27,067 nt of DNA, from NCBI GenBank assembly GCA_023249255.1, contig JAHFCY010000016.1, positions 1 through 27,067 on the forward strand, given 5' to 3'. Positions 5,363-27,027 of the stretch are shown here, one piece after another. A model generated the notes under the pieces. It did not search any database and had not been told where the DNA came from. It saw only the letters and a list, made by a program, of their open reading frames with translations. Source of the stretch: Candidatus Lindowiibacteriota bacterium. GTDB taxonomy: Bacteria > Lindowbacteria > 2-12-FULL-62-27. Each line of letters begins with the position of its first letter. Within the stretch, counting starts at the first letter, position 1. The translations under genes were made by a program, and so were the position numbers.

Positions 5363-6270
5363 TGGACATCAAGGGATTTTTCCGCAAGGCGCTCGGCAAG
5401 ACCAAAGACCTCATCGCCGGCGCGTTTCAGCCCGAATTGCCGGAGGAAGTCTACGCCGAACTCGAAGACCGCCTGATTCTGGCGGACGCGGGGCCGGCCA
5501 CGGCCGCCGGGATCATCGAATCGATTCAGTCAAAAAAACCGGCGACGGTCGAAACCCTCCGCGGCCATTTCCGTTCGGCCATCCGGGAAAGATTTTCCAA
5601 CTCCGCCGCGCCGATCTTCGCGCTGGCGCCTCCAACCGTCTGGTTCGTCTTCGGCACAAACGGCGCGGGCAAGACAACAACCGCCGCAAAAATCGCGAGT
5701 TTCTACAAATCGCAGGGGTCGACCGTGGGCCTCGTGGCGGCCGATACATTCCGGGCGGCGGCGATCGACCAGCTTCGCGTTCTGGCCGGCCGGGCCGGGT
5801 CCGAATTTTACGCGATGGAGGAGGGCGCGCATCCGTCGGCTGTGATTTTCGACGCGCTGTCGGACAAAACGATTCGATCCTGCAATCTTGTGATCGTCGA
5901 TACAGCCGGCCGGCTGCACACGAAAACATCTCTCATGGAAGAGCTGGCGAAGATGACCAAAAGCTGCGAGAAGACCGCGCCGGGCGCGCTCACCGAACGC
6001 CTGCTTGTACTCGACGGCACCGCCGGGCAAAACGCGCTGGTTCAAGCGAAAACATTCCATGCCTCGCTTCAACTCACCGGCCTGATCGTGACCAAACTTG
6101 ACGCGTCGGCGAAAGCCGGATTTTTGCTGGCGATCCGCCAGGATCTGCCCGGCGTACCGGTCAAATGGGTGGGCGTCGGCGAAACGCTTGAAGACATCGC
6201 GCCGTTTGATCCGGATGCATTTGTGGACGGACTGGTTGGAAGTGGCGAAAGTGTCAAAGTGTCAGAATGA
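5362..6270 (+). CDS. ftsY: Signal recognition particle receptor FtsY
   Basis: SRP-type GTPase that docks ribosome-SRP complexes at the inner membrane. It is 302 residues: a short N domain (about 1-85) plus the G domain, with no long acidic A domain; membrane contact would rely on the basic N-terminal helix (DIKGFFRKALGKTKD). GTPase motifs are G1 GTNGAGKTTT (98-107), DTFRAAAIDQL (128-138), DTAGRLHT (180-187), TKLDASAKAG (244-253) and GVGE (271-274). The fourth differs from the usual TKLDGTAKGG at three positions. The overall layout and short length fit FtsY and not Ffh, since no methionine-rich M domain follows. The ATG overlaps the hisH stop (TGATG) and its own stop overlaps ribD (ATGA), so it is translationally coupled on both sides. 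The final codons include a tandem 8-bp repeat, AAAGTGTC twice at 6248-6263. Confidence 0.94.
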   Translation: MDIKGFFRKALGKTKDLIAGAFQPELPEEVYAELEDRLILADAGPATAAGIIESIQSKKPATVETLRGHFRSAIRERFSNSAAPIFALAPPTVWFVFGTNGAGKTTTAAKIASFYKSQGSTVGLVAADTFRAAAIDQLRVLAGRAGSEFYAMEEGAHPSAVIFDALSDKTIRSCNLVIVDTAGRLHTKTSLMEELAKMTKSCEKTAPGALTERLLVLDGTAGQNALVQAKTFHASLQLTGLIVTKLDASAKAGFLLAIRQDLPGVPVKWVGVGETLEDIAPFDPDAFVDGLVGSGESVKVSE

Positions 6271-7394
6271 CCCCTCCTGCTCCTGACCGGATGGCAGACA
6301 CAGACAGGTGGATGGCCGGGGCGCTCGAGGAGGCGGGCAAAGGACTGGGGGACACGTCGCCCAATCCGGCCGTCGGCGCGTTGATCGTTCACGGCGGACG
6401 GGTGATCGCGCGGGGATATCACCGCGCGTTCGGCGGGCTCCACGCCGAGATCGAAGCCTTGAACTGCGTGCCGGAGGCGCTCCGAAAAAAATTCCGATTG
6501 ATGACGCTCGTCGTGACGCTCGAGCCATGCAACCATTTCGGCAAGACGCCGCCCTGCACCGATGCGATCATTCGGGCCGGAATCGGCCGCGTGATCGTCG
6601 GCATGCTCGATCCTCACGACATCGTCGCGGGACGCGGCGTGCGGAAACTTCGGCGGGCCGGAGTGCGGATCGAAGTCCAAAACAACGCCGGGGTGCGCGC
6701 GTTTTATGAACCGTACGTGATGTTTCATCGAAATCGCCGACCGCTCGTCACCCTGAAACTCGCGGTAAGCGCCGACGCAAAAATCGCCGGAAAAAAACAG
6801 GGCTGGATCACAGGACCGGCCGCCCGGGCGGAGGTCCAGCGGATCCGGCGGCGCGTCGACGCCATCATTGTCGGACGTAAAACCGCCGAGATCGACAATC
6901 CTCACCTGACCGTCCGGCCGCCGTTTCGCAAAAATCGGCGGCGCTCTCCCCTGCGCGCAATCCTGACCGCAGGCGGAAAACTTTCACCGAAACTGCGCCT
7001 GTTCCATGACGCCGCGGCGCCCACGCTCATCATCACCACCAAAAATGGGCGACGCCGGCTGTCCCGCCGCGCGCCCGCCGCTTCCGTTCTCACCGTGCCC
7101 GCCCAGGCCGGCGGAGTGTCTCTTCGTGCCGCGCTTGTCGCGCTCGCCCGGCGCGGGATCATGCACGTTCTTGTGGAAGGCGGCGCCGAGACGGCCAATC
7201 GATTCCTTGATGACGGACTCGTCGACGAACTCATTCTGTTTATTTCACCGAAGATCATAGGCGCCGGCGTCGACGCGTTTCGACCGAGGCATGCCCAGCG
7301 CACAGTTGGCCGGCGGCGCGGCGCATGGCGTCTCACCGCGAAGCGGTCGTTTGGACGCGACCTCATGCTGGTATTTCGCAAGGCTGGGGAATAA
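6267..7394 (+). CDS. ribD: Bifunctional riboflavin deaminase/reductase RibD
   Basis: Second and third steps of riboflavin synthesis: deamination of the diaminopyrimidine product of GTP cyclohydrolase II, then NADPH-dependent reduction of the ribose side chain. It is 375 residues. The N-terminal deaminase shows the zinc site HAEIEAL (His59, Glu61) and EPCNHFGKTPPC (Cys88, Cys97). The C-terminal reductase starts about residue 160 (TLKLAVSADAKIAG) and includes WITGPAARAEVQ, AIIVGRKTAEIDNPHLTVR and VEGGAETANRFL. Two starts are possible: ATG 6267, overlapping the ftsY stop, or ATG 6291. The first is preferred for coupling; the core begins near RWMAGALEEA in either case. The DPHDIVAGRG segment differs slightly from the common DPNPxVxGrG. 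No FMN riboswitch can precede the gene, because ftsY coding sequence fills the space. Confidence 0.95.
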   Translation: MTPPAPDRMADTDRWMAGALEEAGKGLGDTSPNPAVGALIVHGGRVIARGYHRAFGGLHAEIEALNCVPEALRKKFRLMTLVVTLEPCNHFGKTPPCTDAIIRAGIGRVIVGMLDPHDIVAGRGVRKLRRAGVRIEVQNNAGVRAFYEPYVMFHRNRRPLVTLKLAVSADAKIAGKKQGWITGPAARAEVQRIRRRVDAIIVGRKTAEIDNPHLTVRPPFRKNRRRSPLRAILTAGGKLSPKLRLFHDAAAPTLIITTKNGRRRLSRRAPAASVLTVPAQAGGVSLRAALVALARRGIMHVLVEGGAETANRFLDDGLVDELILFISPKIIGAGVDAFRPRHAQRTVGRRRGAWRLTAKRSFGRDLMLVFRKAGE

Positions 7395-7398
7395 TTCC

Positions 7399-8073
7399 AT
7401 GTTCAACGGCATCATCCGGCATCAGGGCAGAATTTCACGAATCGATTTGCCGCGCGGCAAAATGGAAATTTTTGCGCCGGTTCTGATCCGCCAACTGCAC
7501 CCCGGCGACTCGATCGCCGTTGACGGCGTGTGCCTGACCGTGACCCGGTGCGGACACGGGAGATTCTCGGTCGACGTCACGCCCGAAACCGTCCGGCGGA
7601 CGGCATTTCGCTGGAAAGCGCCGGGCGCGGCTGTCAATCTTGAACTTCCCATGCGCATGAATGACCGAATTCACGGCCATCTGGTGCTCGGGCACGTGGA
7701 CGGCGTAGGCGTAGTAACACTTTCTGGCTTTAAGAATAGCAGAATAATTCATTCAAAGACGAGACGACCGACGCGAGGCGTTCATCTATATCTTTATGTT
7801 CCTACACGACTTGTAAAATTTCTCGCCGAAAAAGGCTCTTGGGCCGTCAACGGAGTCAGCTTGACGATATCGGCTCTGCGTGGCAGACTGTCCGGTTCGG
7901 CGCTTATTCCGGAAACGCTTCAGCGCACGAATCTTGGCAGGCTCAAACCCGGCGACCGGGTGAACATCGAAGTCGATGTTCTGGCACGGTATGCGTATCG
8001 ATACGCCCGGTACCGAAGGACACGCGAGGAGTCATGGAAAAACAAATTTATTCGAGCATCGAAGAGGCGATAG
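7399..8073 (+). CDS. ribE: Riboflavin synthase, alpha subunit
   Basis: Dismutates two 6,7-dimethyl-8-ribityllumazine molecules to riboflavin. The protein is 224 residues with two lumazine-binding repeats: first [23 protein letters not shown] and [10 protein letters not shown]; second [27 protein letters not shown] and [13 protein letters not shown]. The ATG at 7399 starts the canonical MFNGI N-terminus and has GGGGA 8 bases upstream. In the second repeat, IPETL replaces the more usual IPHTL. Bases from about 7705 to 7840 (linker and start of repeat two) are visibly AT-richer, with rare codons such as AGA, ATA and CTA. The tail after residue 200 is basic ([11 protein letters not shown] and onward) and overlaps ribBA by 40 bases. 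Some databases call this gene ribC. Confidence 0.94.
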
Positions 8074-9269
8074 CCGACATACGATCGGGTCTCATGGTGA
8101 TCGTGGTGGACGATGAAGACCGCGAGAACGAAGGGGACCTGGTGATGGCGGCGGAGAAAGTGACGCCGGAAGCCGTGACGTTCATGGTGACGCACGGCCG
8201 GGGCCTGATCTGCGTTCCTCTGCCCGCGAGGCGATGCGCGGAACTCGGGTTGGATCTTGTGCCGCAGGAAAACTTTGAGCGCGACCGGACGCGGACGAAT
8301 TTCACGGTATCGGCGGACGCCAGGCGCGGCACGACGACCGGAATTTCCGCGCACGACCGGGCCGAAACGATCCGGCAACTGTCGAATCTTTCCTCGAGCG
8401 AATCCGATTTCATCCGGCCCGGCCATGTTTTTCCGATCCAAGCCCAGCCTGGCGGCGTGTTGAAACGCGCGGGACACACCGAAGCCTCCGTCGATCTGGC
8501 GCGGATGGCCGGGTGTCTTCCGGTCGGCGTCATCTGCGAGATTCTGAAAGACGACGGCGCGATGGCGCGCATGCCCGACCTCATCGTATTCGCCAAAAAG
8601 CATGATCTTCGAATCATCACCATCCGCGATCTCATCGCTTTTCGTGCGCGGACTGAAAAACTTGTGCATCTTGCGGCCGAGGCCGATTTCCCAACGCGAT
8701 ACGGCCAGTTCCGGATGAAGCTTTATCGCGACGATATCGAGAACAAGGAGCATCTGGCGATCATCAAGGGCGATGTCAGCGGCAGGGAAAACGTGCTGGT
8801 CCGCGTCCACTCCGAATGTCTCACCGGAGACGTCTTCGGCTCCGCCCGGTGCGACTGCGGCGAACAGCTCGCCAAATCCCTTCGCGCGATCGAATCCGAG
8901 GGCGCCGGCGTCGTGCTCTACATCCGGCAGGAGGGCCGCGGGATCGGCCTGGCAAATAAAATCAAAGCCTACGCATTGCAGGATCAGGGGCTGGACACCG
9001 TCGAGGCCAACCGCAAACTCGGGTTTGCGCCGGACCTTCGCGACTACGGCGTCGGAGCGCAGATTCTGGTCGATCTCGGCCTGACCACGATCCGGATTCT
9101 GACGAACAATCCGAAAAAAGTCGTCGGCCTCAAGGGATACCGGCTGGAAATCGTCGAGCAGGTCCCGATCGAAACAAAACCTACGGAACAAAATTACGAG
9201 TATCTGAAAACCAAAAAGGAAAAACTGGGTCATCTCATCAACCTCGATGAGGATCATTTCGCATCATGA
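8034..9269 (+). CDS. ribBA: Bifunctional DHBP synthase / GTP cyclohydrolase II
   Basis: Makes both riboflavin precursors: 3,4-dihydroxy-2-butanone 4-phosphate from ribulose 5-phosphate (N-terminal domain) and the pyrimidine precursor from GTP (C-terminal domain). It is 411 residues. The DHBP synthase half has [17 protein letters not shown] (25-41), [18 protein letters not shown] and [16 protein letters not shown] (145-160). The cyclohydrolase II half has [20 protein letters not shown], with zinc ligands Cys262, Cys273 and Cys275, then [21 protein letters not shown] and [11 protein letters not shown]. The ATG lies within the 3' end of ribE and is preceded by GAGGAG at a good distance. Both domains look active. 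This is the usual partner of ribD, ribE and ribH in compact rib operons. Confidence 0.96.
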
Positions 9270-9300
9270 GACCGGTCAGGTTGATGTTCTGCGCCCGTAC

Positions 9301-9307
9301 AAGGAGG
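9301..9307 (+). promoter_or_regulatory. Strong ribosome binding site for ribH
   Basis: AAGGAGG, a perfect anti-Shine-Dalgarno match, lies 7 bases before the ATG at 9315. It matters because it fixes the start upstream of an unusual basic N-terminal extension and argues that the tail is translated. It lies in a 45-base spacer after ribBA, one of the longer gaps in this operon. Confidence 0.85.
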
Positions 9308-9314
9308 AATTGCG

Positions 9315-9950
9315 ATGAGTCGGGATCGTAAGGCGTCCGGAGCGACGAAGGCAAGTTCGGCAAAGGCGAGTGTGGTGAAGGCGAATCCGGTGAAGGCCGG
9401 TCTGGTGGTCAAGGCCAGTCCGGTAAAAACCAATTCACGCGTCGCCAGAAAATCGGCGGCGCCGGCCGCCAAGCCGCCCGGGGAGCTATGGGGAACGAAA
9501 GTGGCGTTGGTGATTTCGGATTTTCATTCTGATATCACGGAGAAGCTGGCGTCAGGCGCCACGGAAGTTTTTCAAAAATCCGGGGCACAGATCGACCGAT
9601 TCTCGGTGCCGGGGGCGTTTGAAATCGCCGGCGTCATCACTCGGCTGGCCCGAAGCCGACGCTATGACGGACTGATCGCCATCGGCTGCGTTATTCGCGG
9701 CGAGACCGAGCACTACGATCTGGTTGTGGATCAGGTGAGGGAGGGCGTGGGAAAGGTTTCGGCCGGGGGAGACGTGCCGGTGACGTTCGGCGTGTTGGCG
9801 GTGGAAAACCGTAAACAGGCCGTGGACCGTGCAGGCGGCAAATTGGGGAATCTCGGGACGGAGGCCGCCGAAGCGCTGCTCAAACTGATTCCCATCTATC
9901 GCCGTACAACGCATCCAGCGCTGGTTCAGGCGGGTCAAGGTCACGGCTGA
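9315..9950 (+). CDS. ribH: Lumazine synthase with basic N-terminal tail
   Basis: Condenses the ribityl-pyrimidine with DHBP to 6,7-dimethyl-8-ribityllumazine. The family core (about 155 residues, usually pentameric or a 60-subunit shell) runs from about residue 57 to 200: TKVALVISDFHSDIT, VPGAFEIAG (98-106), GCVIRGETEHYD (124-135, catalytic His133) and PVTFGVLAVENRKQA. It is preceded by about 53 residues rich in Lys, Ala, Ser and Val, with 13 basic residues against 1 acidic, including an imperfect 11-residue repeat (VVKANPVKAGL at 20-30, VVKASPVKTNS at 31-41). The strong ribosome binding site supports this long form. The last dozen residues also extend past the usual end and overlap the upstream open frame of nusB. 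The tail resembles histone-H1-like or nucleic-acid-binding tails in composition only; its role is unknown. Confidence 0.95.
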   Translation: MSRDRKASGATKASSAKASVVKANPVKAGLVVKASPVKTNSRVARKSAAPAAKPPGELWGTKVALVISDFHSDITEKLASGATEVFQKSGAQIDRFSVPGAFEIAGVITRLARSRRYDGLIAIGCVIRGETEHYDLVVDQVREGVGKVSAGGDVPVTFGVLAVENRKQAVDRAGGKLGNLGTEAAEALLKLIPIYRRTTHPALVQAGQGHG

Positions 9951-15036: not shown

Positions 15037-16095
15037 ATGCGGTATCGATTTTTGAGCGACGGAAAAACAGCGGTGTCCGAAGTGGGATTTGGCGTGTGGT
15101 CAGTGGCGACGACATGGTGGGGCGTCAAAGACGCGGAAACCGGTGTGCGGCTTTTGCGCGAAGCCTACGATCAGGGGGTCACGTTTTTCGACACGGCCGA
15201 TGTCTACGGAAACGGGCGAGGCGAGACGCTTCTGGCGGACGCGTTCTGGAAATCCGGCGTCCCGCGCGACAACCTGGTTATCGCGACAAAATTCGGATAC
15301 GACATTTACACGAACTCGGGCGAACGGAGCGGACATGGAGAATTGCCGCAGGATTTTTCGCCTGCATTCATCAAAAAGGCCTGCGAAGAGAGCCTCCGGC
15401 GTCTTTCGACCGACCACATCGACATCTACCAGCTTCACAATCCCCGCATGGATGCAATTCGAAGCGATGACATTATTGAAACGCTTGAGCGATTGAAAGA
15501 CGAGGGCAAAATCCGGCTGGGCGGCGCCGCGCTGGGGCCGGACATCGGATGGTTCGATGAAGGCATGGAGACGCTCGCGAGGGACGGCTACGACGCCATC
15601 CAGATCATTTACAGCCTTCTCGAACAGGAACCGTCCATCGGGTTTTTCCCGTCAGCCGAACAAAAAAACCGGAATCTCATCGTGCGCGTCCCGCACGCGT
15701 CGGGATTGCTTGATCGAAGTTACAAACCGGAAAACGCGTACGACAAATCGGACCACCGAAGTCACCGCAAGGACAAATGGATGGCCGCCGGCGTCGACGC
15801 CGTCCGGCAGTTCGAATTTCTCGAATCGACCATCGGCCCGACGAGACGGCTCCTGTCACAGGCCGCGATCCAGTTCTGTCTTGCCCAACCAACGGTCAAA
15901 ACCGTTCTGCCAAATTTCACACGGACGGACCAGATCAAGGAATTCTGCGCGGCGTCCGATCTTCCGCCGCTGACGAAGGACGATCTGGCACGCGTTCGAA
16001 AACTCTGGGATGACGGTCTGGGCTCCTCGCTCATTCAGCCGTTTTCGAATTCGATCACAAAACCTTCGCCGGTCGCCGCCGCAGGCAGGGGATGA
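15037..16095 (+). CDS. Aldo/keto reductase
   Basis: NADPH-dependent oxidoreductase of the AKR superfamily, 352 residues, TIM-barrel. The catalytic tetrad is complete: Asp52 and Tyr57 in TFFDTADVYGNG, Lys85 in VIATKFGYD and His134 in YQLHNPRM. The cofactor end includes VLPNFTRTDQIKEF near the C-terminus. The loop at 225-255 (SYKPENAYDKSDHRSHRKDK) is longer and more charged than in many relatives and may shape the substrate site. The start is set by the strong ribosome binding site. It is the first gene of a tight cluster with ahbAB, hemQ and ispH (6 bases to the next gene). The substrate is not predictable. A link to tetrapyrrole or isoprenoid metabolism is only suggested by position. Confidence 0.9.
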   Translation: MRYRFLSDGKTAVSEVGFGVWSVATTWWGVKDAETGVRLLREAYDQGVTFFDTADVYGNGRGETLLADAFWKSGVPRDNLVIATKFGYDIYTNSGERSGHGELPQDFSPAFIKKACEESLRRLSTDHIDIYQLHNPRMDAIRSDDIIETLERLKDEGKIRLGGAALGPDIGWFDEGMETLARDGYDAIQIIYSLLEQEPSIGFFPSAEQKNRNLIVRVPHASGLLDRSYKPENAYDKSDHRSHRKDKWMAAGVDAVRQFEFLESTIGPTRRLLSQAAIQFCLAQPTVKTVLPNFTRTDQIKEFCAASDLPPLTKDDLARVRKLWDDGLGSSLIQPFSNSITKPSPVAAAGRG

Positions 16096-16101
16096 ATTGA
16101 G

Positions 16102-17274
16102 ATGAGTCAGAACGCCGTGGCGGGCGACAGCGGGATCAAAAAACTGATGGACGATCCCGTCACGCGCGCAATCCTGAAAGCCGGAGAAGGCGGGTTGGCA
16201 GGAAAGCCGTTCACACACGGGCCGTGGGAAACGCTGGCAGAGGCGGCAAGGAAAAAATACGGCGAGGCGGCCGACCTCACCGCGGCGGCCGTCCGCGAGC
16301 GCGTCCGGGACCTGACGCGCGCGGGCCAGGTCCGATATTCGCGCTGGATTTTGGAGACGGGCAAACTGGTCGGCAAAACCAACACCGCGCTCGTCGCGCT
16401 CGCCGTCGGGCCGGGCGAGATCGACAGAGCCGCCGACATCCTGACGCGTCACCCGGGCGTCAGCCACTGTTATCTGCGCGGAGACAAAGGCTACAACGTA
16501 TGGTTCACACTCGCCGTTCCGCCGGCATGGTCCCTCGAAGCCACGGCCGGAAAATTGCGGGACCTGTCCGGCGCCGGGGGGGTGCGCGTATTGTTTGCCG
16601 AGCGCATGTTGAAAATCCAGGTGGCGCATACCGCCGCGGCCGAAAAAAAGGCCGGCGCCATCACGGACTCCGAACCCGATGTGGTCCAGCCGGACAGCGA
16701 GGGCACGGAACTGTCCGCCGAGGAGGAGCGCTGTCTTGAAATTCTCTGGGAGCCGATCGATTTTTCCGAAGGATCGCCGGAGGCTGAATCGGCCGAACCG
16801 TACGCCGTTCGAGCCAGGGCCGCAAGCGTGGATCCGAAACGGTTTGAAGAGGTCATATCCGGGTTGTATCAGAAAAAAATTCTTCGGCGGTTTTCCGTCA
16901 TCCTGAATCACCGAAACGCCGGCATCTCCGCCAACGGCATGTGCCAGTGGGACGTCGCGGACGAGCATATCGACGCGCTGGCCGACCTCATTCCGAAATT
17001 CGCCGCCGTCACGCACGCCTACATCCGCACGCGTTACGAAGACATTCCGTACCGTCTCTACGCCATGCTTCACGGCCCGTCGCTCGACTGGATCAAGGAG
17101 CGCAAGGATGCGATTGACGAAGCCGCAGCCAAATCCGGCGTGCCGATCAGAACTTCACGCGTGCTGATTTCCGGAAAAGAATTGGGCATGAAACCGCCAT
17201 GCCCCGTCCCCAGCGTTCATCGCGCCTGGTTCTCCAAACATGACCCAGCCGGATCCTGCCGAAAACGCGGCTAA
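16102..17274 (+). CDS. ahbAB: Siroheme decarboxylase, fused AhbA-AhbB (NirDL-like)
   Basis: Removes two carboxyl groups from siroheme to give didecarboxysiroheme, the first step of the siroheme-dependent heme route; homologous NirDL proteins act in heme d1 synthesis. It is 390 residues in two related halves, each an Lrp/AsnC-like winged helix plus ferredoxin-like domain. Half A (about 38-180) has TAAAVRERVRDLTRAGQV, RHPGVSHCYLR and YNVWFTLAVP. Half B (about 205-366) has KRFEEVISGLYQKKILRRFS, LNHRNAGISANGMCQWDV, AVTHAYIRTRYEDIPYRLY and AMLHG. The linker (183-205) is acidic and probably flexible. The order matches AhbA then AhbB. Its last 24 residues look non-conserved and overlap hemQ by 35 bases. 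The neighbouring HemQ-family gene favours heme b over heme d1; no other nir genes are present. Confidence 0.85.
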   Translation: MSQNAVAGDSGIKKLMDDPVTRAILKAGEGGLAGKPFTHGPWETLAEAARKKYGEAADLTAAAVRERVRDLTRAGQVRYSRWILETGKLVGKTNTALVALAVGPGEIDRAADILTRHPGVSHCYLRGDKGYNVWFTLAVPPAWSLEATAGKLRDLSGAGGVRVLFAERMLKIQVAHTAAAEKKAGAITDSEPDVVQPDSEGTELSAEEERCLEILWEPIDFSEGSPEAESAEPYAVRARAASVDPKRFEEVISGLYQKKILRRFSVILNHRNAGISANGMCQWDVADEHIDALADLIPKFAAVTHAYIRTRYEDIPYRLYAMLHGPSLDWIKERKDAIDEAAAKSGVPIRTSRVLISGKELGMKPPCPVPSVHRAWFSKHDPAGSCRKRG

Positions 17275-18007
17275 ACCCGCGACCGGTCCCCGGGGCGGAC
17301 CGGGCGGCGGACGGCCCGGCGCGGACGGCCCGCGCTATTTCGTGACGTACACGTTTTACAGGATTCAAAATAAATTCCGGCGGCTGGACGCAAACAGCCG
17401 GTTGACTGCGTCCCACGACTTCCGCCAGCATCTCGACGACTGGTCCAAAAAAATCCAGGTCCATGCCTATTCGACCGCCGGCATGCGGCCAGATGTCGAC
17501 TTTCTATTGTGGCGGATCGCGCCGGATCTCGAATCGCTCCACGACATGGCTCTCGCGACGAAAAAAACGGCGTTTGGCGTCCATCTCACAATCCCTCACT
17601 CCTATCTCGCGATGACCCGCCGATCGGTCTACGTCGACAAGCACCAGCATGAGGGTCAGGAAGGATCACGGCTTTATATCCGACCCACGGAATCGAAATA
17701 TCTGTTCGTGTATCCGTTCGTGAAAACCCACGACTGGTATCAACTCCCGATGGCCGACCGGCAAAAAGCGATGGACGAACACATCGCGATGGGCCACAAA
17801 TATCCGAGCGTGCGGATCAACACGACGTACTGTTTCGGTCTCGACGATCCAGAATTCGTCGTCGCGTTCGAGTCCGACCAACCCGGCGATTTCCTCGACC
17901 TCGTCATGGAAATGCGCTCCTCCAGGGCCCGTCCCTACACCCTCCGCGACACACCGATTTTCACCTGCATCCGCAAATCATTTCAGGAATTGTGCGAAGA
18001 ATTTTAG
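17240..18007 (+). CDS. hemQ: Chlorite dismutase family protein, probable coproheme decarboxylase
   Basis: Member of the chlorite dismutase-like family, most like HemQ/ChdC, which oxidatively decarboxylates coproheme (Fe-coproporphyrin III) to heme b. It is 255 residues; a disordered Gly/Pro-rich N-terminus (1-30) precedes the ferredoxin-like fold. The expected catalytic tyrosine is Tyr158 in FVYPFVKTHDWYQLP, corresponding to the YPF-type motif of ChdC. The segment MDEHIAMGHKYPSVR (His181 and surroundings) is where the proximal heme histidine lies. HemQ-like LDDPEFVVAFESD follows. The distal Arg of true chlorite dismutases is not evident from motif reading, favouring ChdC, but an alignment is needed. 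The start ATG sits within the end of ahbAB; no good ribosome binding site is seen, so translation is probably coupled. ispH follows after 9 bases. Confidence 0.85.
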   Translation: MTQPDPAENAAKPATGPRGGPGGGRPGADGPRYFVTYTFYRIQNKFRRLDANSRLTASHDFRQHLDDWSKKIQVHAYSTAGMRPDVDFLLWRIAPDLESLHDMALATKKTAFGVHLTIPHSYLAMTRRSVYVDKHQHEGQEGSRLYIRPTESKYLFVYPFVKTHDWYQLPMADRQKAMDEHIAMGHKYPSVRINTTYCFGLDDPEFVVAFESDQPGDFLDLVMEMRSSRARPYTLRDTPIFTCIRKSFQELCEEF

Positions 18008-18016
18008 AGGTCCGGC

Positions 18017-19138
18017 ATGAAAGCTGACCTTCTGAAAAAAGACATCCTTAAAAAATCCACCCGGCGGGACTGGACGGAGGAGAATGGCGTCCGGATGGGA
18101 TTTCACCGGATCGAAAAGAGCGGGCTCACTCTGCGGCTCGCGAATGTATGGGGGTTTTGTTACGGCGTATTGTACGCGATCGAAGCCGTGAACGAAACGC
18201 TCGACAAATACGCCGGAGCGCGGATCTACGTCCTCGGCGATCTCATCCACAACCCGCACGTCAACGGCGAGCTTCAAAAACGCGGCGCCGTGTTCATCGA
18301 TCCGGACGAGATTGACCGGGTCGAGTCCGACGCCGTCGTCGTGGTGCCGGCGTTCGGGACCCGCAAGGACATCTTTCAGAAAATCCGGGATAGAAAATGG
18401 GTGGCCGTCGACACAACGTGCCCGGAGGTGAAGACCGTCGAGGAGGAGGTTTCGCGGTTCAACGAGGAAGGATTCACGGCTGTCATTCACGGCAAATTCG
18501 AGCACCAGGAATCGATCGCCACGAGTTCCTTCGCCAATCACTATCTGATCATCCGAAATCTCGACGAAGCCGCATTTGTGTGCCGGTATCTTCTGGGCGG
18601 TGAAACGCGCGAGGTGTTCATGACGCGATTTTCGAAGGCGACGTCAGCCGGATTCGATCCGGCCGTCCATCTTCGGCGGATTGGCATGGCCAACCAGACC
18701 ACGATGTTGATGAACGAGTCGATGGAGGTTTTCGAGATGTTCCGGAAGGCGATTTTTGAGCGAGACGGACACACCGGCAATTTCCGCGCGATGAAAACCA
18801 TCTGCTCGGCCACGCAGGACCGACAGGACGCCGTTTCCGCGCTCGCGCGAAACGAACCCATTGACCTCTTCGTCGACGTCGGCGGACATTCCAGTTCCAA
18901 TACGCGAAATCTCGCCATCACCGCGCACCAAAACGGAGGCAAACCCGTCTATCACATCGAGCGCGCGAATGATTTATCGGCCGACTCCATCACGTATCTG
19001 CCGATCGATCAGAACAAGCCCGCCACCCAGCGCAACTGGCTGCCGGCCGGCCGCGTGACGATCGGCCTCACGGCAGGCGCGTCAACACCCCACTCGGAAC
19101 TGGAACTCGTGATTCAAAAACTGTTAAGTTTTTACTGA
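18017..19138 (+). CDS. ispH: HMBPP reductase IspH, plant/cyanobacteria-like type
   Basis: Last step of the non-mevalonate isoprenoid pathway: reductive conversion of HMBPP to IPP and DMAPP by a [4Fe-4S] enzyme. It is 373 residues. Cluster ligands are Cys48 (WGFCYGV), Cys135 (VDTTCPEVKTV) and Cys263 (TICSATQDRQDA). Substrate-site motifs include IHNPHVN, HGKFEHQESIATSS, ANQTTML, SSSNTRNL and GLTAGASTP. The HGKFEHQESIATSS stretch, AGFDPAVHLRRIGMANQTT, the long insert and the N-terminal extension (1-38) match the longer cyanobacterial/plant subfamily rather than the E. coli type. GAGG precedes the ATG at a suitable distance. It closes the AKR-ahbAB-hemQ-ispH group and converges on the next gene with one base between stop codons. 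An older name is lytB. Confidence 0.94.
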   Translation: MKADLLKKDILKKSTRRDWTEENGVRMGFHRIEKSGLTLRLANVWGFCYGVLYAIEAVNETLDKYAGARIYVLGDLIHNPHVNGELQKRGAVFIDPDEIDRVESDAVVVVPAFGTRKDIFQKIRDRKWVAVDTTCPEVKTVEEEVSRFNEEGFTAVIHGKFEHQESIATSSFANHYLIIRNLDEAAFVCRYLLGGETREVFMTRFSKATSAGFDPAVHLRRIGMANQTTMLMNESMEVFEMFRKAIFERDGHTGNFRAMKTICSATQDRQDAVSALARNEPIDLFVDVGGHSSSNTRNLAITAHQNGGKPVYHIERANDLSADSITYLPIDQNKPATQRNWLPAGRVTIGLTAGASTPHSELELVIQKLLSFY

Positions 19139-22461: not shown

Positions 22462-24522
<2,061 letters not shown>

Positions 24523-24534
24523 TTTGAACTGACC

Positions 24535-27027
24535 ATGCCCACGGACGTTCAACAGCACGTCGAGGAAGCGTATTTCGAGGACCAGCTCAAGACTTCCTAC
24601 ATCAATTATGCGATGAGTGTCATCGTCGGGCGCGCCCTGCCCGACGTTCGGGACGGATTCAAGCCGGTCCACCGCCGGATTCTCTACGCGATGTACCACG
24701 ACCTGTCTTTGCACCACAACAAACGCTACTCCAAATGCGCCGGTGTCGTCGGCGAGGTCCTCAAGCGCTATCACCCGCACGGCGACACCGCCGTCTACGA
24801 CACGCTCGTGCGGCTCGCGCAGGACTGGGTCATGCGCTACATGCTCGTTGACGGCCAGGGCAATTTCGGATCCATCGACGGAGATCCGCCGGCCGCATAC
24901 CGATACACCGAGTGCCGGCTCGATCACGTCGCCGACTTTTATCTGAATGACATCGACAAGGAGACAATCGATTTCGGCCCGAATTTCGACGATACGCTCC
25001 AGGAACCTCTGATTATCCCGACGCGCCTGCCGAACATGCTCGTCAACGGATCAGCCGGCATCGCCGTCGGCATGGCGACCAACATTCCGCCGCACAATCT
25101 GCGCGAGGTCGTGGACGCGATCAGCGCCCTGATCGAGGATCCCGACATCGGCCCGAAGGAGCTAATGAAACACATCAAAGGGCCCGATTTTCCAACCGGC
25201 GGCGTGATTTACGGGGCGGAAGGCCTGACCGAAATGTATGAACAGGGCCGCGGCAAGTTCACCGTCCGGGCACGGGCCGTGATCGAGCGGCTCCGCAACG
25301 GCAAGGATGCGATCGTCGTGACCGAAATGCCGTTTCAGGTCTCGAAGACCCCGCTCATCGAAAAAATAGCCGATCTCGTCCGCGAGGAAAAACTCAAGGG
25401 CATTTCAGCGATGCGTGACGAGTCGGACCGCGACGGCATCCGGCTCGTGATCGAATTGAAGAAAGGCGAGACACCCCAGGTTGTTCTCAACAACCTCTAT
25501 AAACACACCCAGCTTCAGATTACCTTCGGGGCCATTCTCCTCTGTCTCGTCGACAATCAGCCGCTGATTCTTCCCCTGAAGCGCATCATCGAACACTTCA
25601 TCCAGTTCCGCAAAGACGTCATCACGCGACGGTGCAAGTTCGAACTTCGCAAGGCTGAAGAGCGGGCGCACATTCTCGAAGGGCTCAAAATCGCGATCGC
25701 GCACATCAACGAGGTCGTCAACATCATCAAGAAGTCGAAGGACACCGACGACGCGCGGAAGAAACTGACCAAACGATTCAAACTCTCGGACGTTCAGGCG
25801 CAGGCCATCCTCGACATGACCTTGAAACGCCTCACGAGCCTCGAGGTCGATAAGATCGACGACGAACTCAAAGAGCTCAAGGAGCAAATCAAGGATCTCA
25901 AGGCGATTTTAGCGAGCGAGAAAAAACTGCTGGGCGTCGTTAAAGACGAGCTTGAGGAAGTCAAAAAATTATTCGGCGACGATCGTCGGACCGAAATCGT
26001 CAAGAAGGCTGAAGACTTTTCGGTCGAGGACCTCATCGCCGAGGAGGACGTTGTCGTCACGATTTCGCACGACAGCTACATCAAGCGCATGCCTGTGTCG
26101 AGTTACCGGCGACAGCGGCGGGGCGGGCACGGCGTGACGGGGATGAAGACGAAGGAAGAAGACGCCGTCGAGCATCTGTTTGTCGCGTCGACCCACAACT
26201 ACATCCTGTTTTTCACCGACCAGGGCAAATGTCTCTGGCTGAAAGTCTACGACATTCCGGAAGGATCGCGGACGAGCCGGGGCAAGGCGCTGGCGAATTG
26301 TCTGGCGGTCGGCGGGGAGGAGCGCATCACGGCGTTCGTGCCCGTGAAGGAATTCACCGAAGGTTCATTCCTCTTCATGGTGACGAAAACCGGCACCGTC
26401 AAGCGCGTTGCGTTACCTGAATTTTCAAATCCCCGTTCCGGCGGCATCCGTGCGATCACGCTTGACGACAAGGATTCCCTCATCGGTGTGAAACTCACTT
26501 CCGGCAACGCCGAAGTCATTCTTTCCACGCACGAGGGCATCGCAATCCGCTTCCATGAAAACGACGCGCGCGTGATGGGCCGGGCGGCCGGCGGTGTCCG
26601 CGGCATCCGGCTCGGAAAAAATGATTATGTCGTGTCGCTTGCGATGGCCAACAAGGGGTCGGATCTTCTGGCCGTGACCGACAAAGGCTACGGCAAACGC
26701 ACGCCGCTCGACGAGTACCGCATCCAGTCCCGGGGCGGCAAAGGCATCATCAACATGAAGGCGACAGACCGGAACGGCAAAGTCATCAACGTCCTCGAAG
26801 TCAGCGACAAGGACGAGCTTCTCCTCATCACCAAAAAAGGCGTCGTCATGCGCATCCGTGTGAAGGAAGTCCGCGAGTGCAGCCGCAACACCCAGGGCGT
26901 CCGCCTCATCAATCTCGATTCCGGCGACTCGCTCGTCGACGTCGCCCGCGTCGTGGAGGAAGAAGCCGACGCGGAATCCCCATCTCCCGAGGAAAAAGAG
27001 CCGGAAATCCCGCCGTCAAAAGCCTGA
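24535..27027 (+). CDS. gyrA: DNA gyrase subunit A
   Basis: DNA-cleaving and wrapping subunit of gyrase, 830 residues. The catalytic tyrosine is Tyr124 in [10 protein letters not shown]. The quinolone-resistance region reads [15 protein letters not shown], with Thr at the position equivalent to E. coli Ser83 and Asp at 87. A coiled-coil arm (about 440-490) follows. The C-terminal beta-pinwheel carries the GyrA box as QRRGGHG (527-533), with His replacing the usual Lys, and a degenerate copy QSRGGKG (731-737). These identify gyrase rather than ParC. The protein ends in an acidic Pro/Glu tail ([17 protein letters not shown]). The ATG lies 12 bases after gyrB with no clear ribosome binding site, so coupling to gyrB is likely. 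Only about 40 non-coding bases remain after the stop, with no visible terminator. Confidence 0.97.

Follow-up and report, generated by a model that had tools for sequence, protein, structure and literature searches.

A siroheme decarboxylase-coproheme decarboxylase operon from the Lindowbacteria lineage suggests a heme b pathway with two last enzymes

An uncultured member of the Lindowbacteria lineage probably makes heme b from siroheme. One operon would supply the enzyme that opens this route and one of the two that can close it, with ChdC acting when an oxidant is present and a radical-SAM enzyme acting without one. The window, the 27,067-nucleotide stretch of DNA analysed here, is contig C66 of a metagenome bin (G000; 3.35 Mb in 366 contigs, 88.7% complete and 3.9% contaminated). 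A chimeric branch in which siroheme enters and ChdC finishes is supported by the sequences of the genes, and the presence of two last enzymes in one genome, ChdC and an AhbD-type radical-SAM enzyme, is the most likely reading of them. We infer the activities of the enzymes and an oxygen-dependent division of labour between the two finishers.

Results and Discussion

Conservation of the operon

The genes for siroheme decarboxylase and ChdC lie in a conserved block of four genes (Table 1). As the initial annotation had described, a fused AhbA-AhbB gene overlaps a ChdC-like gene, and the overlap is exactly 35 bases, suggesting that the two are co-translated. The conserved block (15037-19138) exceeds the interval originally noted (16102-18007). 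The window genome was compared with two relatives, Candidatus Lindowbacteria RIFCSPLOWO2_12_FULL_62_27 (G001) and a groundwater MAG (G002); the three represent three genera, and all are incomplete. The order AKR-AhbAB-ChdC-IspH is intact in all three genomes, with 60-77% identity for the block in the relatives. The block is considered an operon because it is kept as a whole, beyond the central pair. The ahbAB and chdC pair recurs in the two other genera with 57-73% identity, so the pairing is not due to chance. The overlap in G001 is also 35 bases long, and the start of chdC in G002 is ambiguous (GTG at 9687 or TTG at 9636). KdtA and a thioesterase, found 5' of the block in the window, were not found in the 20 kb flanking the block in both relatives. 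A contig scan with AhbAB as the query gave matches only in the two close relatives, and a scan of the operon for promoters and terminators gave no signal above shuffles.

Table 1. Positions of the operon genes, their neighbours in the window, and the AKR gene of a second lineage
Feature	Sequence	Position	Strand	Basis or remark
Riboflavin operon (RibD, RibE, RibBA, RibH)	Window	6267-9950		5' of the conserved block
AKR (aldo/keto reductase)	Window	15037-16095	+	Pfam PF00248, 7e-50; ends 6 bases 5' of ahbAB
Fused AhbA-AhbB siroheme decarboxylase	Window	16102-17274	+	390 aa, ATG start; AhbB NCBIfam model, PDB 4ch7, motif
ChdC/HemQ-type coproheme decarboxylase	Window	17240-18007	+	255 aa, ATG start; Pfam PF06778, 1e-55
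ahbAB/chdC overlap (35 bases)	Window	17240-17274	+	ORF coordinates
IspH (4-hydroxy-3-methylbut-2-enyl diphosphate reductase)	Window	18017-19138	+	TIGR00216, 226.6 bits (cut-off 187.85); ends the conserved block
gyrB-gyrA	Window	22492-27027		3' of the conserved block
AKR of G185	L114	7676-8776		Adjoins the ChdC/AhbAB pair

Siroheme decarboxylase

The sequence, predicted fold, and active-site motif of AhbAB all point to siroheme decarboxylase. Two AsnC_trans_reg2 stretches (Pfam, 3e-35) mark the protein as a duplication, and its N-terminal half resembles AhbA and its C-terminal half AhbB. It passes the NCBIfam cut-off for AhbB (134.2 bits, cut-off 125) and falls below that for AhbA (110.6 bits, cut-off 140). 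Its sequence matches PDB entry 4ch7 (3e-26), and the best PDB fold for the AlphaFold2 model (pLDDT 85) is the NirDL siroheme decarboxylase 4ch7/4czc (Foldseek E 9e-20). Because identity with canonical bacterial AhbAB proteins is low, at about 30%, the active-site motif was inspected. The HXYXR motif faces the active site of siroheme decarboxylase, and its arginine is essential in Desulfovibrio (PMC4145669). The motif occurs twice in the window protein, once per half (H122-C-Y124-L-R126 and H305-A-Y307-I-R309). The tyrosine and arginine of both copies and the second histidine are invariant in all ten aligned proteins, which come from several bacterial families. At E <= 1e-20 the AhbB model has one match per genome in each of the three family genomes, and this is AhbAB itself.

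Coproheme decarboxylase

The product of the overlapping gene has the residues of a ChdC and not those of a chlorite dismutase. Its best PDB matches are the ChdCs of Streptomyces and Corynebacterium, and actinobacterial ChdCs are the nearest proteins by both sequence and fold. The protein was aligned with Listeria ChdC and with a plasmid-encoded Cld-family protein whose gene adjoins a molybdopterin oxidoreductase. Tyr158 aligns with the catalytic tyrosine of the Listeria and actinobacterial enzymes, where the Cld-family protein has valine. The proximal histidine is His181, and His135 aligns with the distal histidine of actinobacterial ChdC. The criteria for chlorite dismutase were a distal arginine and a glutamate bonded to the proximal histidine (PMC7611857), and the window protein has Ile193 and Ala230 at these positions. 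The initial annotation had called for a check of the tyrosine, the proximal histidine, and the distal arginine; the first two are present and the third is absent. Tyr158, Ile193, and Ala230 argue against chlorite dismutase function, which was rejected.

The score against the HemQ equivalog model NF042928 (HemQ_actino) is 136.9 bits, below the cut-off of 235, and the scanned homologues are below it too. Because this model was missed and was built for actinobacteria, the protein is called ChdC-type and not a certified equivalog. The low score, together with an identity to solved ChdCs of about 25-27%, would fit a heme- or coproheme-binding peroxidase or an accessory factor, with heme always made by the radical-SAM enzyme described below. 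This explanation is very improbable, since the catalytic tyrosine, the proximal and distal histidines, and the loss of the Cld arginine and glutamate are all ChdC-like, and ChdC clusters with AhbAB in two lineages.

Entry into the pathway

The distribution of the remaining heme genes suggests that coproheme is made from siroheme. A SUMT-HemD fusion, HemC, HemA, and a protein with a precorrin-2 dehydrogenase domain are clustered on contig C287 of G000. At L084:3725-5275, SUMT is fused to uroporphyrinogen-III synthase (HemD) and adjoins HemC and HemA. AhbC (a 371-aa frame) is found on contig C354 of G000, and its score against TIGR04546 (404.7 bits; 420.7 bits for the G001 protein) is below the cut-off of 650. 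AhbC is the first or second best model for the protein, which groups with AhbC/NirJ1-type proteins, some of them encoded beside AhbAB genes.

Ferrochelatase and HemY/CgoX were not detected in any of the three incomplete family genomes, and URO-D was not detected in G000 or G001, also incomplete; the control genomes were positive for these enzymes. The only URO-D match in G002 is 32 residues long and lies at a contig end. The classical and coproporphyrin routes were rejected for G000 because it has no detectable URO-D, ferrochelatase, or HemY/CgoX. For the same reason the coproheme for ChdC must come from siroheme through AhbAB and AhbC. The proposal of entry by the siroheme route is thus upheld: SUMT-HemD, precorrin-2 dehydrogenase, and AhbC are present and no other source of coproheme was detected. 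The initial annotation had set a complete CpfC/CgoX route against this proposal, and neither enzyme was found in the three genomes.

Heme-copper oxidase genes are present in G000 and G001, so heme is required, and these genes imply exposure to oxygen. Another possible role for AhbAB and AhbC is in heme d1 synthesis (NirDL/NirJ) and not in heme b synthesis. AhbAB is homologous to NirDL, and the AhbC protein scores nearly equally with the NirJ1 and AhbC models (414 vs 405 bits). However, G000 encodes heme-copper oxidases and shows no other route to heme b, and the partner of ahbAB is chdC, with no pairing with nir genes. A role in heme d1 synthesis is therefore extremely unlikely.

A radical-SAM protein encoded beside AhbC

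The genome probably encodes a second last enzyme, a radical-SAM protein whose gene lies directly downstream of ahbC on C354. The two genes are adjacent in all three family genomes. The protein scores 347 bits against the AhbD model TIGR04545, below the cut-off of 500; the next best proteins of G000 with this model are AhbC, at 187 bits, and two with weak scores of 77 and 71 bits. The radical-SAM protein passes the cut-off for TIGR04053 (468.9 bits, cut-off 395), a family that has no functional name in NCBIfam and for which a literature search found nothing. In trees it is placed in a TIGR04053 clade (100/100), apart from the AhbDs that score above the cut-off, and this clade includes a protein from a nirK cluster of Haloferax larsenii. 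It has GGN where the above-cut-off AhbD clade has GGC, with a cysteine. The AhbC-TIGR04053 pair is followed by a nitronate-monooxygenase-like (PF03060) protein at L019:5876-7369 and L020:11720-13150, and by a histidine kinase and a sigma-54 response regulator in G000.

The Haloferax proteins provide a link to function. The H. larsenii protein scores 501.6 bits with TIGR04053 and 343 with the AhbD model, and it is 46% identical to the C354 protein. Its gene neighbours are a multicopper oxidase, a halocyanin, and a cbb3/NorB-type oxidase subunit, and Thermus thermophilus has a TIGR04053 gene in a similar neighbourhood. In H. volcanii the ahbD gene is HVO_2144, which lies amid nirK, halocyanin, and norB genes, and the deletion mutant grows poorly under anaerobic conditions if no heme is supplied (PMC5746218). 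Gene order, taken only from the sister species H. larsenii, suggests that HVO_2144 is a TIGR04053 protein. The likeliest function of TIGR04053 would then be that of an oxygen-independent coproheme decarboxylase.

TIGR04053 genes are found in haloarchaea, Thermus, and Deinococcus ficus (L143, L144, L146, L148, and L147). In haloarchaea and Thermus the neighbours are multicopper oxidase (nirK-type), NorB-type oxidase, halocyanin, cytochrome c, or nosZ genes, while in D. ficus the gene is near cobA and a SirB-like gene. These neighbourhoods suggest a role in anaerobic heme synthesis.

It could be argued that ChdC has fully replaced AhbD and that the radical-SAM protein beside ahbC acts otherwise. 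The low TIGR04545 score, the position outside the above-cut-off AhbD clade, the missing cysteine, and the lack of a functional name for TIGR04053 would agree with this. However, the cysteine is likewise missing from AhbDs of non-methanogenic archaea (PMC10452713), a TIGR04053 protein occupies the ahbD position in Haloferax, and the gene adjoins ahbC in three genera. Full replacement therefore appears unlikely. A stronger statement, that AhbD is absent altogether, had been based on the TIGR04545 cut-off and was dropped in view of the same archaeal AhbDs and the Haloferax neighbourhood.

The preferred reading is that the Ahb set probably includes its own last enzyme, so that ChdC is an additional finisher and not the sole one. 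The initial annotation had proposed ChdC in place of AhbD, and the TIGR04053 protein (469 bits against 395, in a clade with the Haloferax nirK-cluster protein) speaks against this. It had also named ahbD together with a complete Ahb set as evidence that would refute its proposal, and an Ahb set with a last enzyme of its own is probably present. The core of the proposal, siroheme in and ChdC out, is right, while its exclusivity is probably wrong.

In the proposed pathway, uroporphyrinogen III would be converted to siroheme by SUMT-HemD and precorrin-2 dehydrogenase. AhbAB would take off the two southern acetate carboxyls of siroheme, and AhbC, encoded away from the operon on C354, would produce coproheme. 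When an oxidant is available, the ChdC of the operon would use H2O2 to convert coproheme to heme b. Without an oxidant, the AhbD-type radical-SAM protein encoded beside ahbC would most likely finish coproheme.

Comparison with known heme pathways

The closest parallel is the dual pathway of H. volcanii (PMC5746218, PMC8305020), which also uses the siroheme route and lacks URO-D, CgoX, and CpfC. Both organisms have a fused AhbAB, ChdC, and an AhbD-type enzyme, and gene neighbourhood indicates that the radical-SAM family TIGR04053 is common to the two. G000 has the gene content of the haloarchaeal type: Ahb genes, ChdC, and an AhbD-type enzyme are present, and URO-D and CpfC were not detected. 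In H. volcanii, growth phenotypes show that ChdC (PitA) is required under oxic conditions and AhbD under anoxic conditions (PMC5746218). Nearly all haloarchaea have chdC, and two thirds also have ahbD (PMC8305020). Unlike in H. volcanii, the system described here is bacterial, and its ahbAB and chdC genes overlap and share an operon with AKR and ispH. In addition, the window ChdC lacks the antibiotic-monooxygenase domain and the His-rich linker of haloarchaeal PitA.

Sulfate reducers and methanogens, whose siroheme-dependent pathway runs through AhbA, AhbB, AhbC, and AhbD, share the AhbAB and AhbC steps. In contrast to those organisms, no AhbD above the TIGR04545 cut-off is found here, and a TIGR04053-type protein and ChdC are present instead. 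The coproporphyrin pathway of Gram-positive bacteria (CgoX, CpfC, ChdC) also has ChdC as its last enzyme, with an actinobacterial-type distal histidine as in the window protein. It differs in its source of coproheme, which in the window genome, with URO-D, CgoX, and CpfC undetected, must be siroheme.

Recurrence in other bacteria and the AKR gene

The association of AKR, ChdC, and AhbAB is also found in a second bacterial lineage. In a survey of 386 sampled genomes, AhbB was found in 57, and 16 of these also have a chlorite-dismutase-family gene, some of the matches being weak or partial. Outside the window family, a full ChdC-type gene without detectable ferrochelatase is found in G185, G349, G172, and family f70. 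G349, which is 100% complete, also has AhbC and COX1. ChdC-like proteins of family f70 (L118, L120) lack the distal His loop; AhbAB is present there and ferrochelatase was not detected. G225 and G350 (L122, L123) have ferrochelatase and HemY as well as AhbAB, an AhbC-like protein, TIGR04053, and ChdC, and they possibly have two entries to coproheme.

Five genomes of family f166 (G185 and four relatives; L114, L139-L142) have the order AKR-ChdC-AhbAB-HemA, and their AKR is 42-45% identical to that of the window. Because the same three partners are found in two lineages with different gene orders, the functional link between them is strong. The AKR gene is adjacent to ChdC and AhbAB in both, which makes it a candidate component of the pathway. 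No paper that links an AKR to HemQ and heme biosynthesis came up in a literature search. In G185, AhbC and AhbD were not detected at E <= 1e-35, and neither were ferrochelatase, HemY, and COX1. One further explanation is that AKR, ChdC, and AhbAB form a dedicated module with AKR as a real component, and that the AhbC step in f166 and similar lineages is carried out by another enzyme, possibly AKR itself; taken as a whole this is quite doubtful.

Conclusions

A mixed route with siroheme entry and a ChdC finish was already known from haloarchaea, and here it is described in a Lindowbacteria-lineage genome. Earlier reports of such an arrangement in bacteria may exist beyond the literature covered here. 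The authors of the H. volcanii study left open the source of coproheme for ChdC (PMC5746218). Found in two bacterial lineages with differing gene order, the AhbAB-ChdC operon provides direct evidence at the genome level that ChdC receives coproheme derived from siroheme, and this linkage answers the question for these bacteria. For TIGR04053 the analysis also points to a likely role, the anaerobic decarboxylation of coproheme, and it marks AKR as a candidate for a new component of the heme pathway.
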